From contig NZ_FWXX01000004.1 of the NCBI RefSeq assembly GCF_900176475.1, forward strand, positions 124,001 to 188,000: a DNA stretch of 64,000 nt, given 5' to 3'. This DNA comes from Tropicibacter naphthalenivorans. Its GTDB lineage: Bacteria > Pseudomonadota > Alphaproteobacteria > Rhodobacterales > Rhodobacteraceae. The notes below the pieces were generated by a model, which was given only the letters and a program-made list of their open reading frames with translations, searched no databases and was not told the origin of the DNA. Of this stretch, positions 41,519 to 49,260 are shown in pieces (position 1 is the stretch's first letter; each line of letters begins with the position of its first letter). The translations under genes and the position numbers were made by a program.

Positions 41519-42484
41519 ATGCTGTCTCGTCGCGCCCTGCTTGGGCCTTTGCTGGTTGCCCCCTGTGCCGCGCCCTTTGCGGCCCCTGTGGCGGTGCACG
41601 CGCAGGCGCCGCTGAACGTGGTCGCCACCACGGGGATGATCGCCGATGCGGTGCGCAATATCGCCGGGGACTTGGCGCAGGTGACCGCGCTGATGGGGCC
41701 CGGCGTCGATCCGCACAGCTACCGTCAGACCCGCTCGGACATTGCGGCGATGACCCGCGCCGATCTGGTGCTGTGGAACGGTCTCTATCTCGAAGCGCAG
41801 CTCGAAGAGTTCCTGCACACCCTCGCCCGCCGCGTGCCCGTGGTGGCCGTGGGCGACAGCGCCCCGAGCGATTACCTGCTGCGCCATGCCGAATATCAGG
41901 GCCGCCCCGACCCGCATCTGTGGATGGCCCCGCGCCTGTGGCGCTACGTGGTCGAAGGTATCCGCGACGCCCTGCACGCCCAGCGCCCCGAAGCCGCCTT
42001 TACCGCGCAGGCGGCCGCGTACCTCGCGCAGGTTCAGGCGGTTGACGACTACGCCCGCGCGGTCCTGACCACCGTGCCCGAAAGCGCCCGCGTGCTGGTC
42101 ACCGCCCATGATGCCTTTGGTTATTTCGGGCGCGACTACGGGTTCGAGGTGCTGGGTGTGCAGGGCATTTCCACCCAGTCCGAGGCCGGCCTTAGCCGCA
42201 TTGCCGAACTGGTCGACACGCTGGTGCAGCGACAGATCAGGGCGGTGTTCGTGGAAAGCTCTGTCTCGGATCGCAACCTGCGCGCGCTGATCGAAGGGGC
42301 CGCCGCCCAAGGCCATACCGTCCAGATCGGTGGCGAGCTGTTTTCCGACGCCATGGGCACACCCGGAACGTATGAGGGCACCTATCTGGGGATGATCGAC
42401 CACAACGCCACGACCATCGCCCGCGCCCTTGGCGGCACCGCGCCGGAAACCGGCATGGCGGGCAAGCTGCGGGGCGGCGCATGA
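41519..42484 (+). CDS. Manganese/zinc ABC transporter substrate-binding protein
   Basis: A 321-residue periplasmic receptor of the metal-binding (ZnuA/SitA/MntA) class. It has a signal peptide with a twin-arginine-like start (LSRRALLGPLL) ending at about HAQA. Ligands expected for the family are visible: the histidines in DPHSY and DPHLW, Glu in FVESSVSDR and Asp in GMIDHN. The His-rich loop typical of zinc-only receptors is missing, which with two permease genes favours manganese (SitABCD-like). Its stop overlaps the ATPase start (ATGA). Confidence 0.9.
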   Translation: MLSRRALLGPLLVAPCAAPFAAPVAVHAQAPLNVVATTGMIADAVRNIAGDLAQVTALMGPGVDPHSYRQTRSDIAAMTRADLVLWNGLYLEAQLEEFLHTLARRVPVVAVGDSAPSDYLLRHAEYQGRPDPHLWMAPRLWRYVVEGIRDALHAQRPEAAFTAQAAAYLAQVQAVDDYARAVLTTVPESARVLVTAHDAFGYFGRDYGFEVLGVQGISTQSEAGLSRIAELVDTLVQRQIRAVFVESSVSDRNLRALIEGAAAQGHTVQIGGELFSDAMGTPGTYEGTYLGMIDHNATTIARALGGTAPETGMAGKLRGGA

Positions 42485-43227
42485 GCCCGCGCGATCTGAA
42501 CGACGCAGGCCTGTCGCCGCTCGCGGTGCGCGGGTTGACCGTCGCCTATGGCGCGCAGCCGGTCTTGCAAGGCGTTGATATGACGACGGTTCCGGGGGCC
42601 ATGACGGCGATCATCGGGCCGAATGGCGCGGGCAAATCCACCCTGCTCAAGGCGTGCCTTGGCGTGGTCAAGCCCCTGTCCGGGCAGGTGAGCGCCTGGG
42701 GCCAGCCAACCTCGCGCCAACGCGACCGGATCGCCTATGTGCCGCAGCGCGCTTCGGTCGATTGGGACTTTCCGACGCGGGTGATCGACGTGGTTCTGAT
42801 GGGGATGTACCGCCAGCTGGGCCTGCTGGGCCGGGTCCGGGCGCGGCATTTTAAGCAGGCTCAGGACTGCTTGACCCGTGTGGGAATGCAAGACTTTGCG
42901 GATCGCCAGATCGGCCAGCTTTCCGGCGGCCAGCAGCAGCGGGTGTTCCTCGCACGGGCCTTGGCGCAAGAGGCCGATCTATACCTGTTGGACGAACCCT
43001 TTGCCGGGGTGGATGCCGCCACCGAAAGCGCGATCATCGCCGTCCTGCATGGCCTGCGCGATGCGGGCAAGACGGTGGTCGCGGTGCATCACGACCTGTC
43101 CACCGTGCCCGCCTATTTCGACCGAGTGTTCCTGATCAACCGCACCGCGCAGGCCGAAGGGCCGGTGGACGTCGCCTTTACCCCCGAAACGCTACAGGCC
43201 ACCTACGGCGGGCGCGTGCATGTTTGA
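42481..43227 (+). CDS. Manganese/zinc ABC transporter ATP-binding protein
   Basis: A 248-residue ATPase subunit that powers metal import. Walker A is GPNGAGKST, the signature is LSGGQQQR, and Walker B is LYLLDEPFAGVD, followed by the switch histidine in VAVHHD. It starts inside the receptor stop codon and overlaps the first permease by eight bases, so the four transporter genes are translated as a coupled block. Confidence 0.95.
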   Translation: MSPRDLNDAGLSPLAVRGLTVAYGAQPVLQGVDMTTVPGAMTAIIGPNGAGKSTLLKACLGVVKPLSGQVSAWGQPTSRQRDRIAYVPQRASVDWDFPTRVIDVVLMGMYRQLGLLGRVRARHFKQAQDCLTRVGMQDFADRQIGQLSGGQQQRVFLARALAQEADLYLLDEPFAGVDAATESAIIAVLHGLRDAGKTVVAVHHDLSTVPAYFDRVFLINRTAQAEGPVDVAFTPETLQATYGGRVHV

Positions 43228-44134
43228 GGCACTGACGCTGCAATTGGGCTACAACGCGACGCTTGTAACCTTGGGGGCGGCGGCCTTGGGCGTGGCGGCG
43301 GGGGTCGTCGGAGCCTTTCTGAACTTTCGCAAACGCGCGCTGATGTCCGACGCGATCAGCCACGCGACCTTGCCGGGGTTGGCCTTGGCGTTCCTGTTGA
43401 TGGTGTCTTTGGGCGGCGAAGGGCGATCCCTGCCCGGTTTGATGCTGGGCTCGGCGGTTTCGGCGGGCCTTGGCCTGTGGGTCGTATCATGGCTGACCAC
43501 GCGCACCCGCCTGCCCCAAGACGCGGCGATCGGCGCGGTATTGTCGGTGTTCTTTGGCTTTGGCGTCGTCTTGATGACGGTGATCCAGACGCTGTCGGCG
43601 GGTCGCCAAGCGGGGCTCGAAGGCTTCCTTCTGGGCTCCACCGCCGGGATGCTGCGCAGCGACGCGTTGACCATCGCCGCCGGAGGAGTTGCCGTTTTAC
43701 TGGCCGCCTTGGCGCTGCGCCGCCCGCTGCTGATGACCGCCTTTGACGCCGGATACGCCCGCCAGCGCGGCATCGACACCAACCGGATGGACGGGGCGCT
43801 GATGGCCTTGGTGCTGGCGGTGACGGTGGTGGGGCTGAAAATCGTCGGCCTCGTGCTGATCGTCGCCTTGTTGATTATTCCCCCGGTCGCGGCGCGGTTC
43901 TGGTCGGACAACGCCGCGCGGGTGATCGCCCTGTCCGGCGGAATCGGCGGGGTGTCCGGCTACGCAGGCGCGGCAATTTCCGCCAGCGCGCCGGGGCTGC
44001 CCACCGGGCCGTTGATCGTCCTGACCAGCGCCGCGGTGTTCACGCTGTCCATGCTGTTTGCCCCGACCCGAGGTGTCATCGCCGGGGCGTTGCGCCACCT
44101 AAAAATGCGGCGCGCACTGCAAAGGGGGGCGTGA
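43220..44134 (+). CDS. Manganese/zinc ABC transporter permease, first subunit
   Basis: A 304-residue ABC-3 family membrane protein with about eight hydrophobic segments. The cytoplasmic-loop motif for the ATPase is FLNFRKRALMSDAISHATLPGLALAF, and the conserved VVGLKIVGLVLIVALLIIPPVAAR lies near the C-terminus. It starts eight bases inside the ATPase gene. Its stop TGA shares a base with the start of the second permease. Confidence 0.93.
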   Translation: MFEALTLQLGYNATLVTLGAAALGVAAGVVGAFLNFRKRALMSDAISHATLPGLALAFLLMVSLGGEGRSLPGLMLGSAVSAGLGLWVVSWLTTRTRLPQDAAIGAVLSVFFGFGVVLMTVIQTLSAGRQAGLEGFLLGSTAGMLRSDALTIAAGGVAVLLAALALRRPLLMTAFDAGYARQRGIDTNRMDGALMALVLAVTVVGLKIVGLVLIVALLIIPPVAARFWSDNAARVIALSGGIGGVSGYAGAAISASAPGLPTGPLIVLTSAAVFTLSMLFAPTRGVIAGALRHLKMRRALQRGA

Positions 44135-45039
44135 TGGGCGCAGAATTTGTCATGCTGTCCCTGCCGCCAATGGTGATCGGAGCTTTGGCCGCGATGGCCT
44201 GCGCCTTGCCGGGGAATTTCCTGTTGCTCCGGCGCGAAGCCCTGATCGGTGACGCCATTTCCCACGTGGTCCTGCCGGGGATCGTCGTGGCCTTTTTGCT
44301 GACCGGCATGGTGGCCACCGGGCCGATGATGCTGGGTGCGGCGGGGGCGGCGCTGCTGGCCGCCGTACTGATCGCCACCATCCGCCGCTTTGGCGGGGTC
44401 GAGCCGGGGGCCGCCATGGGCGTCGTGTTCACCACGATGTTCGCGGGCGGCGTGCTGCTGCTGGAGCAGAGCAACACCGCCTCGGTGCATCTGGACGTGG
44501 AACACGCGCTTTATGGCAACCTCGAAAGCCTGATCTGGATCGACGCGGTGGGCTGGGGATCGCTGCTGGACCCGCGTGCGCTGGCCGGTCTGCCGCCGGA
44601 ACTGCCGCGTATGGCGGTGACCTTTGCCGTGGTCGCGGTGCTGACGGCGCTGCTGTGGCGGCCGCTGAAACTGTCGACCTTTGACGCGGGCTTTGCCCAA
44701 AGCCTCGGCCTGCCGACCGGAGCCATCGGCCTTGGCGTGACGCTGGCGGCGGCGCTCTGCGCGGTGGCGGCCTTTGACGCGGTGGGCTCGATCATCGTGA
44801 TCGCCATGTTCATCTGCCCGCCCGCCGCCGCGCGCCTGATGACCAATCGGCTGGAACGGCAAGTCGCCTGGTCGCTGGCCTTTGCGCTGGCCTCTGCCGT
44901 GCTGGGCTATGTGCTGGCGGGCTACGGGCCGCTGTGGCTGGGCGCGCCCGCGTCAGTGTCGGCGGCGGGGATGATCGCCACGGTGTCGGGGATGATCCTC
45001 GCGTTGGCCGCTGTGTTCGCCCCTCACCGCAAAGCGTAA
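44134..45039 (+). CDS. Manganese/zinc ABC transporter permease, second subunit
   Basis: A 301-residue ABC-3 family permease. The same coupling motif recurs as LLLRREALIGDAISHVVLPGIVVAF, and the C-terminal block reads AAFDAVGSIIVIAMFICPPAAARLM. Two different permeases in one operon suggest a heterodimeric channel, as in SitCD. The ATG at 44134 sits after a run of six G; a GTG one codon earlier is also in frame. It ends 48 bp before dnaE2. Confidence 0.93.
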   Translation: MGAEFVMLSLPPMVIGALAAMACALPGNFLLLRREALIGDAISHVVLPGIVVAFLLTGMVATGPMMLGAAGAALLAAVLIATIRRFGGVEPGAAMGVVFTTMFAGGVLLLEQSNTASVHLDVEHALYGNLESLIWIDAVGWGSLLDPRALAGLPPELPRMAVTFAVVAVLTALLWRPLKLSTFDAGFAQSLGLPTGAIGLGVTLAAALCAVAAFDAVGSIIVIAMFICPPAAARLMTNRLERQVAWSLAFALASAVLGYVLAGYGPLWLGAPASVSAAGMIATVSGMILALAAVFAPHRKA

Positions 45040-45059
45040 ACCACAAAAGACTCCACCCG

Positions 45060-45074
45060 GAACGAAACGTGAAC
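45060..45074 (+). promoter_or_regulatory. LexA (SOS) box before dnaE2
   Basis: GAAC (45060-45063), seven bases, GAAC (45071-45074). This is exactly the alphaproteobacterial LexA target (GTTC-N7-GTTC, same-strand form GAAC-N7-GAAC). It ends 13 bases before the dnaE2 ATG, where LexA would block transcription until DNA damage. Confidence 0.85.
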
Positions 45075-45087
45075 TAAACTGCGCAGC

Positions 45088-48045
45088 ATGTTCGCCGAGC
45101 TCTGCATCACCTCCAACTTTACCTTCCTCACCGGGGCGTCCCACCCCGAGGAATACATGGAGCGTGCGGCCCTCGCAGGCCTGTCCGCCATCGCCATCGC
45201 CGATGTGAACAGCGTCGCGGGGATCGTGCGCGCCTACGCCCAGGCCAAGGAGATCAGCCACCAGATCGCCGAGCGGGCGGCGGCGCAACAAGACGGCCCC
45301 ATCGGCCCGCCCTCGCCCTTTCCGCCGCGCCCCGGCCTGCATGTGACCAACCTGCCCCGGCTGATCCCCGCCGCAAGACTGGTCCTGCGCGAAGGGATCG
45401 AGGCCACGGCGCTGGCCGCCACGCGTCAAGGCTGGGCCACCCTCTGCCGCCTGCTGTCCACAGGTCGCCTGCGCGCACCTAAAGGCGGCTGCGATCTGGG
45501 CCTGTCCGACCTGCCGGACGACTTGAGCGGGCTGATCTTGATCCTCCACCCGCCGCACCACGCGCAGACCTCTCCGCCCGGCGCGGACGGGTGGCCCAAG
45601 CTTGCGGAACGGGTGACGCGCCGCCTCCCCGAGGCATGTTACCTCGCCCTTGCCCCGCGCTACGACGGGCTGGACGCGCAGCGCTTTGACGCCCACGCCG
45701 CGCTGGCCAAGCAGCTCAACCTGCCCACCATCGCCACCGCCGCGCCAATCATGCACCACGGACGCCGCCGCCGCATTGCCGACGTGCTGACCGCCATCCG
45801 GCTGGGCCGCCGGGTCGACGCCTTGGGGCGGGCGGCGCTGGCCAATGCCGAACAGCGCCTGCGCTCGGAACCCGAGATGCGCCGCCTGCTCGGCCCGCAC
45901 GGCGAGGCCATCGACCGCGCCGCCGCGCTGGCGGACAGGTGCACCTTTGACCTTGGCGATCTGCGCTACGAATACCCCTCGGAAATCAGCGGCGATGAGA
46001 CCCCGTCAGACCGCCTGTCCCGCCTCGCCCACGAAGGCCTGAACTGGCGCTACCCCCAAGGCGCGCCGGACCGGGTGCGCGCCATGCTGGCCCATGAGCT
46101 ACACCTCATCGCCAAGCTCAAATACGAGCCGTATTTCCTGACCGTGCGCGACATTGTCGCCTTTGCCCGCGACCGGGGGATCCTCTGCCAGGGGCGCGGC
46201 TCTGCGGCCAACTCGATCACCTGCTACTGCCTTGGCGTCACCAGCGTCAGCCCGGAAATCGGCACCATGGTGTTCGAACGCTTTGTCTCGGAGGCGCGGG
46301 ACGAGCCGCCCGACATCGACGTCGATTTCGAACACGAACGGCGCGAAGAGGTCATCCAGCACATCTACGAACGCTACGGTCGGCACCGCGCGGGCCTGTG
46401 CGCCACCGTCATCCACTACCGGGGCAAGCGCGCCATCCGCGAGGTCGGCACCGCCATGGGCCTGTCGCGCGACACCATCGGCGCGCTGTCCAGCCAGCTT
46501 TGGGGGTTCCTGTCCTCGGACGCCTTGCAACCCGCGCGCCTGCGCGAAATCGGGCTGGACCCGGACGACCGCCGCCTGCAACTGACCCTTGATATCGTCA
46601 ACGAAATCATCGGCTTCCCGCGCCATCTGTCGCAGCACGTGGGCGGGTTCATCATCACCGAAGGCCGTCTGGACGAACTGGTGCCCGTGGAAAACGCGAC
46701 GATGGAAGGCCGCACCGTCATCTGTTGGGACAAGGACGACATCGACACGCTGGGCATTCTCAAGGTCGACATCCTCAGCCTTGGGATGCTGACCTGTATC
46801 CGCAAGGCCTTTGACCTGATTGCCATGCACAAGGGGCCGCGCCACACGCTGGCCACCCTGCCGCCCGAAGACCCCAAGGTCTATCAAATGCTGTCCCGCG
46901 CCGACAGCGTCGGGGTGTTTCAGGTGGAGAGCCGCGCGCAGATGAACTTCCTGCCGCGGATGCGGCCCCGCTGTTTCTATGATCTGGTGATCGAGGTCGC
47001 GATCATCCGCCCCGGCCCGATCCAGGGCGACATGGTCCACCCCTACATCCGCCGCCGCAACGGCGAGGAAAAGGTCGAATTCCCCTCGGACGAGCTGGGC
47101 GAGGTCTTGGCCAAGACGCTCGGCGTGCCGCTGTTCCAGGAGCAGGCCATGCAGATCGCCATCATCGGCGCGGGCTTTACCCCGACCGAGGCCGACCGCC
47201 TGCGCCGCAGCCTTGCGACCTTTAAAAAACACGGCAACGTGTCGGAATTCCGCGACCGGTTCCTGTCGGGGATGCGCCGCAACGGCTATGATCTGGACTT
47301 TGCCGAACGCTGTTTCAGCCAGATCGAAGGCTTTGGCAGCTACGGTTTCCCCGAAAGCCACGCCGCCAGCTTTGCCCTGCTGGTCTATGCCTCGGCTTGG
47401 CTGAAATGCCACGAGCCGGGGATCTTTGCCTGCGCGCTGCTGAACTCTCAGCCCATGGGGTTCTACGCCCCGGCGCAAATCGTGCGGGATGCGCGCGAAC
47501 ATGGCGTCACCGTCCGGCCCATTTGCATCAACGCCAGCTACTGGGACAACGCCATGGAGCCGGACGGGCGCGGCGGGCTGGCGCTGCGGCTGGGGTTCCG
47601 CCAGATCAAGGGCCTGTCCGAGGATGACGCCGCCTGGATCACCGCCGCGCGCGGCAACGGCTATGGCTCGGTGCGCGATGTCTGGCGGCGCGCCGGGGTG
47701 GCTCCGCATCTGCTGGCGCGACTGGCCGAGGCGGATGTCTTTGCCGACTTGGGGATGACCCGCCGCGAAGCCCTGTGGGAGGCCAAGGCGCTGACCAAAG
47801 GCCCGGAGCTGCCGCTCTTCGCGCAGGACATTGACGGCGAGGCGATCTTTGAGCCCGCCGCCCATCTGCCCGCCATGACCGAGGGGCAGGAAATCGTCGA
47901 AGACTACGTCGCCATGCGGCTGACCCTGCGCCGCCATCCGGTCGCGCTGTTGCGGCATATCCTGACCCCACCCGAAGCCTATGGCCCGCGCCCTCTGGAC
48001 AGCCCGCCCCGCATGGGTCATCCCTCTGACAAGACAGGGAGCTGA
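45088..48045 (+). CDS. dnaE2: Error-prone DNA polymerase DnaE2, shortened at the C-terminus
   Basis: A 985-residue translesion polymerase of the C-family. The PHP domain (FAELCITSNFTFLTGASHPEE) leads, and the palm with the catalytic aspartates PDIDVDFEHERREEV lies near residue 410. LCQGRGSAANSITCY, the FGSYGFPESHAASFALLVY block and an HhH region follow. Typical family members run on for roughly 100 residues more with an OB-fold domain. Here the protein stops after LRRHPVALLRHILTPPEAYG and an unrelated 19-residue tail. No imuA or imuB is nearby. A LexA box precedes it. The next gene starts two bases after its stop. Confidence 0.9.
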   Translation: MFAELCITSNFTFLTGASHPEEYMERAALAGLSAIAIADVNSVAGIVRAYAQAKEISHQIAERAAAQQDGPIGPPSPFPPRPGLHVTNLPRLIPAARLVLREGIEATALAATRQGWATLCRLLSTGRLRAPKGGCDLGLSDLPDDLSGLILILHPPHHAQTSPPGADGWPKLAERVTRRLPEACYLALAPRYDGLDAQRFDAHAALAKQLNLPTIATAAPIMHHGRRRRIADVLTAIRLGRRVDALGRAALANAEQRLRSEPEMRRLLGPHGEAIDRAAALADRCTFDLGDLRYEYPSEISGDETPSDRLSRLAHEGLNWRYPQGAPDRVRAMLAHELHLIAKLKYEPYFLTVRDIVAFARDRGILCQGRGSAANSITCYCLGVTSVSPEIGTMVFERFVSEARDEPPDIDVDFEHERREEVIQHIYERYGRHRAGLCATVIHYRGKRAIREVGTAMGLSRDTIGALSSQLWGFLSSDALQPARLREIGLDPDDRRLQLTLDIVNEIIGFPRHLSQHVGGFIITEGRLDELVPVENATMEGRTVICWDKDDIDTLGILKVDILSLGMLTCIRKAFDLIAMHKGPRHTLATLPPEDPKVYQMLSRADSVGVFQVESRAQMNFLPRMRPRCFYDLVIEVAIIRPGPIQGDMVHPYIRRRNGEEKVEFPSDELGEVLAKTLGVPLFQEQAMQIAIIGAGFTPTEADRLRRSLATFKKHGNVSEFRDRFLSGMRRNGYDLDFAERCFSQIEGFGSYGFPESHAASFALLVYASAWLKCHEPGIFACALLNSQPMGFYAPAQIVRDAREHGVTVRPICINASYWDNAMEPDGRGGLALRLGFRQIKGLSEDDAAWITAARGNGYGSVRDVWRRAGVAPHLLARLAEADVFADLGMTRREALWEAKALTKGPELPLFAQDIDGEAIFEPAAHLPAMTEGQEIVEDYVAMRLTLRRHPVALLRHILTPPEAYGPRPLDSPPRMGHPSDKTGS

Positions 48046-48047
48046 CC

Positions 48048-48581
48048 ATGGCCGATGGGACCTTTGCCGTTCTGCTGATGTTGCTGGGCTGGAGCGATAT
48101 GAGCGACAATTACTGCGACACAGCCGGGGGCTGCTGGGCGCCGTCGGACCGCCCCGCGCAGCTCATGCTGTCGCAGGGCGAGGTGATCCGCCGCCGCGCC
48201 CATGTGGCGAACGAAAGCTATGTGCGCTACGATCTGGGCACGCAGGTCGGCCCCTTTGGGCAGGCGGCGGGCTTTTCCGCCGGCGAAGAGGGCGAGCTTT
48301 GGGCCGGCTATGGCCTGACCTACACCATGCGCATGGGCGCGTTCTACGCCGAGCTGCACCTGATGCCGGGGCTGTACCTGGACAACGGCGGCTTTGACAT
48401 GGGCGGGCTGCTAGAGTTCCGATCCGGGCTGGAACTGGGACTGGAAAGCGCCGATGGCTGGCGCGTCGGGCTGGCCTATGACCACCGATCAAACGGCGGG
48501 ATATTCGAGGCCAACCCCGGCAAGGAAACGCTGCAAGTGCGCTTTGGCGCGCCCGCAGCGGTGCCCTTGCCTGCGGACTAG
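48048..48581 (+). CDS. PagL-like acyloxyacyl hydrolase (lipid A 3-O-deacylase family)
   Basis: A 177-residue protein. The C-terminal DHRSNGGIFEANPGKE gives His146, Ser148 and Glu160, the same spacing as the His-Ser-Glu catalytic triad of PagL lipid A deacylase. The alternating glycine/aromatic pattern (YLRY-like strands, MPGLYLDNGGFDMGG) suits a small outer-membrane beta-barrel. The N-terminus (FAVLLMLLGWSDMS) is hydrophobic but not a textbook signal peptide. AGGGAG in the end of dnaE2 is its ribosome site and the gap is two bases, so it probably shares the SOS-controlled transcript. Confidence 0.8.
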   Translation: MADGTFAVLLMLLGWSDMSDNYCDTAGGCWAPSDRPAQLMLSQGEVIRRRAHVANESYVRYDLGTQVGPFGQAAGFSAGEEGELWAGYGLTYTMRMGAFYAELHLMPGLYLDNGGFDMGGLLEFRSGLELGLESADGWRVGLAYDHRSNGGIFEANPGKETLQVRFGAPAAVPLPAD

Positions 48582-48585
48582 CGGA

Positions 48586-49260
48586 TCAACTGAAATCCTC
48601 GGTGATGATCTGCGCCTCGGGGACGCCTGCGGCTTCGAGCAGCTTGGGCATCGCCTCGACCATCGGATCGGGGCCGCAGACATAGCAGACGTCCTGCCCC
48701 GGCGTGATCACCTGTTTCAGCGTCTTCACCCCGATCTGGTCGCTGGCATAGGGGCTGCCCGGCTGATCCGTCACGATCCAGCGCGTGTCCAGCCCCGTCA
48801 TCGCCTCGAACTGATCCTTGAGGATGATGTCGCGGTCGGTCTGGTTGGAAAACAGCAGGGTGTTGCCTGCAAGGTTGCCTTTGGCGGCCAGCTTGGCCCG
48901 CAGGATCGAGATGAAGGGCGTCACGCCTGCGCCCCCGGCGATAAAGACGCCGTCGCCTTCGTCGTGGATCGCGCCCCACGGGTCCTTGATCGTGACGGTG
49001 TCGCCGGGGGTCAGGGCGGCAATGCGTTTGGTCACGCCATCATGCTCGGGGTAGGATTTGATGACGAACTCTAGGCTGTCATCGCCCGGCAGCGAGGTAA
49101 AGGTAAAGGGGCGGTATTCGTCGCGCCAGCCGTCCTGATCCAGCGCCAGATCGGTGGCTTGGCCGGGGGTGAACTCGAACCCCTCGGGGCGGTCGAACAC
49201 CAGATGATAGGTGTCGTGGGTGACGGGTTCGATGGTTTGCAGCGTCAAAGTATGGGTCAT
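48586..49260 (-). CDS. FAD-binding oxidoreductase, ferredoxin-NADP reductase-like
   Basis: A 224-residue single-chain reductase without an attached ferredoxin domain. The FAD site is YRPFTFTS near residue 49. The NAD(P)-binding loop GGAGVTPFISILR lies near residue 110, and VCYVCGPDPM comes close to the C-terminus. It would transfer electrons between a pyridine nucleotide and a carrier protein. The partner is not evident. It is transcribed against the dnaE2 operon and lies 33 bp after the DedA gene. Confidence 0.88.
   Translation of the reverse strand: MTHTLTLQTIEPVTHDTYHLVFDRPEGFEFTPGQATDLALDQDGWRDEYRPFTFTSLPGDDSLEFVIKSYPEHDGVTKRIAALTPGDTVTIKDPWGAIHDEGDGVFIAGGAGVTPFISILRAKLAAKGNLAGNTLLFSNQTDRDIILKDQFEAMTGLDTRWIVTDQPGSPYASDQIGVKTLKQVITPGQDVCYVCGPDPMVEAMPKLLEAAGVPEAQIITEDFS

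Follow-up and report, generated by a model that had tools for sequence, protein, structure and literature searches.

In a 64,000-nucleotide stretch of the Tropicibacter naphthalenivorans genome (contig NZ_FWXX01000004.1, positions 124,001 to 188,000; hereafter the window), a gene for the error-prone DNA polymerase DnaE2, headed by a LexA-type operator, is directly followed by a relative of pagL, the gene of the lipid A 3-O-deacylase PagL. Our interpretation, to which we attach a probability of roughly 0.78, is that this is a real LexA-boxed pair, in which a PagL gene from a roving and often ribosomal RNA (rRNA)-borne family landed behind a dnaE2 under SOS control, and that the two genes are likely co-expressed. 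The pair was seen only in T. naphthalenivorans among the close relatives examined, and the gene-order data do not support an old pathway joining the SOS response to lipid A. Comparison of loci shows that the Rhodobacteraceae PagL family has varied locations, in many genomes inside helix 25 of the 23S rRNA gene, a placement that is more surprising than the dnaE2-pagL pair itself.

The dnaE2-pagL locus and its LexA box

The operator (GAACGAAACGTGAAC, of the form GAAC-N7-GAAC) occupies positions 45060..45074 of the forward strand, 13 nucleotides (nt) upstream of the dnaE2 ATG at 45088. On the same strand, dnaE2 extends over 45088..48045, ends in a TGA stop codon (48043-48045), and encodes an error-prone DNA polymerase of 985 amino acids (aa) that has neither the OB domain nor the ...SRDFH C-terminus found in its full-length relatives. 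The pagL-like gene (48048..48581, forward strand, 177 aa), the open reading frame (ORF) of which is intact, starts with an ATG at 48048 after a gap of 2 nt, and a forward-strand AGGGAG within the final dnaE2 codons (48036..48041) is, from reading the sequence, its probable ribosome-binding site. The original prediction, made from the sequence alone, had described an exact box 13 bp before dnaE2 and a second gene starting two bases past the dnaE2 stop with its ribosome-binding site inside dnaE2, and it is borne out on both counts. Because the gap on the shared strand is only 2 nt, co-transcription is the simplest reading, and to judge from this layout pagL is most likely cotranscribed with dnaE2.

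As a bare motif GAAC-N7-GAAC is unremarkable, with three matches in the window against 1.55 expected, and 19 of 100 shuffles reach three. Judged across related loci, the position and conservation of the dnaE2 box are not due to chance. Our dnaE2 set of 78 comprises near-complete relatives of at least 68% identity, three more divergent short sequences, the congener Tropicibacter alexandrii LMIT003 (G149) and 19 full-length sequences; the short ones number 59 with the window included, and the full-length ones were picked by hand from the list rather than sampled at random. GAAC-N7-GAA[C/T] lies no more than 120 nt upstream of 50 of the 59 short dnaE2 genes (0.25 expected from plain shuffles), and the exact GAAC-N7-GAAC is found within the same distance in 15 (0.135 expected). 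A box stands upstream of 1/19 full-length dnaE2, most of which are inner operon genes. In many relatives a GAAT-type second half-site merges into a TATAAT-like sequence (e.g. GAATATAAT), which would make operator and -10 element overlap. LexA thus very probably represses dnaE2 via a box at its promoter, as the conservation of the operator suggests. A promoter and terminator scan of positions 44900-48700 found nothing, which says little because the dnaE2 promoter was missed as well.

We envisage that a pagL of the roving family settled directly behind a dnaE2 that was already SOS-controlled, with LexA acting through the box at the promoter. Read-through into pagL, together with translational coupling through the ribosome-binding site inside dnaE2 and across the 2-nt gap, would mean that DNA damage raises PagL in this species, and the enzyme would then be exported and deacylate lipid A.

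The PagL protein

That the second gene is PagL-like, as had been proposed, is supported by a PF09411 match of 47.1 bits against a gathering cut-off of 23, and the same family matches all 47 proteins compared (the window protein and 46 relatives) at E <= 0.001. His146, Ser148 and Glu160 are invariant in the 47 aligned rows; the catalytic spacing of PagL in Pseudomonas aeruginosa is likewise His, Ser at +2 and Glu at +14. A predicted model based on the 47-row alignment (predicted local distance difference test score 93.5) consists of an N-terminal helix and eight long strands, and its best solved match in Foldseek is PagL 2erv (E 6.4e-6). The window protein thus resembles known PagL in its PF09411 match, its predicted barrel fold and its His/Ser/Glu spacing, but it is only 18% identical to 2erv in the fold match, and the seat of its gene differs, lying behind dnaE2 in the window and inside 23S rRNA in many relatives. 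A helix is predicted at residues 5-22, and the start MADG is without the basic residues usual in signal peptides, leaving export by a standard signal peptide unsure. Taken together, the preserved fold and catalytic residues make the window protein a probable lipid A 3-O-deacylase.

PagL genes within helix 25 of 23S rRNA

Matches to the window PagL at E <= 1e-10 occur in 75 of 394 family genomes, of which 54 were inspected for 23S. Relative to an insert-free T. alexandrii 23S of 2821 nt, the pagL ORF replaces reference positions 559-571, with rRNA aligned on both sides, in 16 of the 54, and G025 and G373 show the 3' rRNA flank only, at a contig end or gap. A second set of 80 named pagL loci, which are the best 80 of 123 relatives from an alignment query (a single-PagL query confirmed none), includes 18 with the ORF in 23S at the same bases. 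Nine genomes are common to both sets, and 25 distinct genomes carry a 23S-borne pagL. In several loci the Rfam 23S rRNA model extends across pagL, treating the ORF as a single large insert. One genome, G341, has three identical-scoring PagL copies, and all three 23S genes found in it carry the ORF, so that its ribosomes would have to derive from transcripts of this kind. Examples of 23S-borne pagL are L195:3046-6456, L300, L304, L320, L334, L336 and L337, with L343, L347, L348, L350, L358, L359 and others in addition; the species with such a copy include Maliponia aquimaris, Roseivivax halotolerans and Poseidonocella pacifica. Eleven more named loci contain 5S or 23S with pagL outside it; pagL lies within a few kb of 5S/23S in L303, L307, L311, L312, L315, L317, L324, L354, L356, L361 and L374 (e.g. 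in Marivita and Pseudooceanicola spongiae).

In Escherichia coli coordinates the insertion falls between nt 536 and 551 of 23S, which we take to be the loop of helix 25. The accessible part of one report names helix 25 as a known site of intervening sequences (IVS; PMC2801512). The insertion is flanked by an inverted repeat of ~20 bp (GACTGGACTCTAATGACAAT... / ...ATTGTCATTAGTGTCCAGTC) with one conserved T-T mismatch. Over the 25 genomes, 445 of 500 cells are standard pairs and 5 of the 20 pairs changed on both sides in compensatory fashion, position 9 is never paired and position 12 pairs in 17/25; kinship among the rows was not controlled for, and a 3' arm misplaced by the fuzzy search in L346 was kept, which lowers the count. 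When the two arms were folded, 17 of 18 loci had more pairs between them than shuffled controls did, the remaining one, L300, having fewer (26 vs 30.5). A repeat search with a 6-base seed ranked the stem first in 5/5 loci, at 86-95% complementarity, with longer but weaker pairs also present in two, and with a 9-base seed the stem was missed in 3/3 loci.

These insertions resemble known 23S IVS (at helices 25, 45 or 9, some with S23p ORFs) in lying at helix 25, in their long stem and in being read in the sense of the rRNA transcript, but they differ in that the ORF is an outer-membrane enzyme rather than S23p, and the window copy is outside 23S. IVS-borne ORFs are known for S23p according to the portion available of PMC4990558, and the same portion describes a Coxiella IVS ORF thought to be unexpressed, its Shine-Dalgarno region being lost on excision. 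By that precedent, the 23S-borne pagL genes could be passive, untranslated passengers of the helix-25 IVS, yet this seems unlikely: in each of the 25 genomes that show rRNA on both sides, the ORF is uninterrupted at 170-178 aa and runs in sense to the rRNA, a Shine-Dalgarno-like sequence precedes most of them (by eye), and the His, Ser and Glu residues are invariant. Moreover, the 18 named in-23S ORFs have a median ratio of nonsynonymous to synonymous substitution rates (dN/dS) of 0.17, computed from those pairs (132 of 153) for which dS is finite, though often high, and the corresponding ratio of uncorrected proportions (pN/pS) is at most 0.50, comparisons which show that these ORFs are under purifying selection.

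We put forward more tentatively, and at somewhat less than even odds, the idea that in marine Rhodobacteraceae the rrn transcript is cut at the conserved stem, that the freed IVS RNA is translated to PagL, whereby deacylation of lipid A would follow ribosome synthesis, and that the gene moved out, twice coming to lie behind an SOS dnaE2. If PagL is made from an excised piece of pre-23S, an outer-membrane enzyme would be encoded in an rRNA gene, and growth rate would govern the editing of lipid A; annotation pipelines are expected rarely to look for coding genes inside rRNA genes. The two SOS placements of pagL, if true, would rewire membrane remodelling to DNA damage, and the copies of the window and of Poseidonocella would be natural experiments placing the same enzyme under the SOS response. 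In the open-licence literature, as far as titles and the beginnings of abstracts go, neither a PagL ORF in 23S rRNA nor a dnaE2-pagL operon was found.

Two loci with Rhodobacteraceae-like 23S and PagL are titled otherwise, L304 as the actinobacterium Enemella evansiae and L299 as Flavobacteriales UBA2669; in the L304 genome there are, in addition, two dnaE2 of the full-length kind of this family, and the names or bins of both look wrong.

Rarity and origin of the pair

Among the 78 dnaE2 loci, pagL adjoins dnaE2 in that of the window alone, and in neither the congener nor the other 57 short-DnaE2 loci. Searched from the other side, dnaE2 is absent from 33 other pagL loci (0/33, one locus starting at a contig edge) and from 39 further or re-fetched ones (0/39), and in the 80 named loci the two genes adjoin once, in Poseidonocella sedimentorum; the three sets share members, and for 15 of the 62 named loci outside 23S the available upstream sequence is shorter than 1.5 kb. 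The comparison of related genomes that the original prediction had proposed thus speaks against a shared arrangement, with one distant case apart. The pagL of T. alexandrii, 72% identical to that of the window, lies 3 nt after an ABC-2 permease gene (PF01061), and its dnaE2 is on a different contig.

The distant case (L386:4666-10215) consists, on one strand, of an exact box GAACAAAGCGGGAAC, imuB, a full-length dnaE2, a gap of 115 nt and pagL. Because its DnaE2 belongs to a different group and its gap differs, it is independent of the window pair, and a rough calculation (62 named non-23S loci x 0.6/3600 genes) puts the chance of a second case at ~1%. Evidence for selection of a link between the SOS response and lipid A comes from this case alone; in such a link, PagL induction would be useful under damage (e.g. 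through vesicle release) and pagL would have been placed behind dnaE2 repeatedly. The intact catalytic residues of PagL accord with such a link, as does the tie between remodelling of lipopolysaccharide and vesicle formation in Salmonella, for which lipid A deacylation is a proposed cause in the available excerpt of PMC4958258. We nonetheless regard a selected link as improbable, given that 77/78 dnaE2 loci, all 33 and all 39 pagL loci of the first two sets and 79 of the 80 named ones are without the adjacency, and that the P. sedimentorum gap begins with CCCCGCAAACCGGGG, by eye a possible hairpin that could separate dnaE2 and pagL. The broader interpretation is therefore supported in part: SOS control of dnaE2 has good support from operator conservation, whereas a conserved link to lipid A has none, with adjacency in one of 78 loci and a congener that is without it.

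We give equally little credence to a mere accident of gene order, with pagL constitutive or under its own promoter and the SOS response without bearing on it, which would suit the very different lengths and gaps of the frames that pagL follows outside 23S, but for which the 2-nt gap and the ribosome-binding site inside dnaE2 make independent transcription in the window less likely, and which gains nothing from a promoter scan that was empty, if uninformative.

We therefore return to our preferred reading, the landing of a roving PagL gene behind an SOS-controlled dnaE2, against which a number of points must be set. T. alexandrii is the sole congener compared, pagL could have its own promoter inside dnaE2, and the second pair hints at selection rather than accident. 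Placing the in-23S label on a tree of 81 PagL proteins takes 11 changes, against a shuffled mean of 16.5, well-supported branches force only one, and the tree cannot fix the number or the direction of moves; the window and T. alexandrii proteins pair together in it, outside 23S. The window pagL, sitting between dnaE2 and a gene for an FAD/NAD oxidoreductase, has no 23S sequence at its locus, and the assembly of its own genome yielded no 23S genes against which an rRNA history of this copy could be checked. Furthermore, neither the window pagL nor 61 of the 62 other named copies outside 23S are bordered by the IVS inverted repeat, so nothing demonstrates a direct origin of the window copy from 23S; the remaining copy, L342, has a weak match with four mismatches on one side only, and no IVS arm at <=1 mismatch occurs in the genomes of T. 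naphthalenivorans or T. alexandrii.

We also considered that pagL might be a mobile element whose ends are the helix-25 stem, and rejected this, the stem being absent around 62/63 non-23S copies (window included). Of the two pagL copies in Salipiger mucosus, one (L344:1436-5022) has a gene for an IS605-type transposase (PF01385) 1.7 kb away, which offers a conceivable means of moving it, and a LexA-type box 3 kb upstream of a pagL in this species sits at an IS605-type transposase gene. A plasmid search for pagL returned four distant Sulfitobacter records.

A shortened DnaE2 and a dispersed mutasome

The original prediction was also right to call DnaE2 shortened, but shortening is a clade-wide trait which, from its distribution, is separate from and unrelated to pagL and the older event. 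The window protein scores 1196 bits against NF004225 (cut-off 939), the match ending at position 938 of 1047, and carries the PHP-Pol3-HhH core (PF02811, PF07733, PF17657 and PF14579); the PF01336 OB domain was not found in it, whereas a full-length relative has PF01336. A C-terminal OB domain is near-universal in DnaE2/ImuC. A match to the window DnaE2 at E <= 1e-100 is present in 129 of 149 sampled family genomes, and a search of its own genome (4.45 Mb, 32 contigs) returned, besides the window gene, a single polymerase III alpha of 30% identity that is presumably DnaE1.

The SRDFH ending occurs in none of the 59 short DnaE2 (window included) and in 16 of the 19 full-length proteins. Most short proteins end shortly after ...RLTLRAHPVALLRxxLTP, and a few continue into a longer, unrelated tail. 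With a tblastn query limited to the OB domain, chosen because a query still holding the linker before it matched short loci falsely, 18 of 19 full-length loci match, the exception being truncated at the edge of a contig, and none of the 59 short dnaE2 loci does, flanks included. In a FastTree tree of the 78 proteins one branch with support of 99 separates the 59 short from the 19 full-length; the program warns of long branches, and L138 and L139, the two most divergent short proteins, are placed unsurely. The short form appears to go back to a single, old loss of the OB domain that a large clade of Rhodobacteraceae shares, a reading that follows if the OB domain is ancestral. By eye, the terminal HPR-VR-F of the OB-less L099, L101 and L104 is similar to the full-length tail and could be what is left of it, in which case the OB domain would have been lost by internal deletion. 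We keep the name DnaE2 for the OB-less window protein because the literature knows several such proteins: DnaE2 without the OB as well as the C-terminal domain are mentioned, with no taxon named, in the part available of PMC3919608.

In the same clade the imuA-imuB-dnaE2 cassette would have been taken apart. The window genome has imuB on G000:C8, imuA on G000:C11 and dnaE2 on G000:C16, each with a LexA box and in no single operon. All 59 short-clade genomes searched contain ImuB, and imuB lies within the fetched dnaE2 flank in only 7/59 loci. ImuA-like genes are at yet other places (best E 1e-16 to 1e-39), with the ImuA search of G144 giving a RecA-like match only. Of the 19 full-length dnaE2 loci, 17 have imuB in the fetched flank and 14 have imuA there, the latter by simple tblastn; since L137 and L142 have neither, unlinked genes occur outside the short clade too. 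An exact GAAC-N7-GAAC is found no more than 170 nt upstream of imuB in 29 of 30 loci and at all 15 imuA loci inspected. These comparisons show the cassette of the short-DnaE2 clade to be split into separately LexA-boxed genes, the direction of change being our inference. Loci of the dispersed mutasome are L081-L139, L161-L190 and L200-L214, and a LexA-type box of its own accompanies nearly every copy inspected.

The clade therefore shares with the SOS mutasome cassette imuA-imuB-dnaE2 (ImuC) the same three proteins, LexA-type boxes and an error-prone DnaE2, but differs in that the three genes are mostly unlinked, each is boxed, and DnaE2 is without OB. A split between imuA'-imuB and dnaE2 is known in mycobacteria, as the accessible text of PMC6511836 states. 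A clade-wide DnaE2 without OB, alongside separately boxed imuA, imuB and dnaE2, offers a test of which parts of the mutasome are dispensable. The window genome also has a third Y-family polymerase gene (G000:C32:1551-1988, L159; ORF of 456 aa, PF00817 and PF11799), at the start of which the exact LexA box is absent.

Neighbouring genes

Downstream of pagL, the FAD/NAD oxidoreductase gene runs in the opposite direction. None of the window genes 3' of dnaE2 was found at the dnaE2 loci of T. alexandrii (L081) and L082. On the 5' side, ZnuABC-type metal transporter genes (41519-45039; PF01297, PF00005 and PF00950) stop 48 nt before dnaE2, and this upstream order of transporter and dnaE2 is also present in both of those loci.

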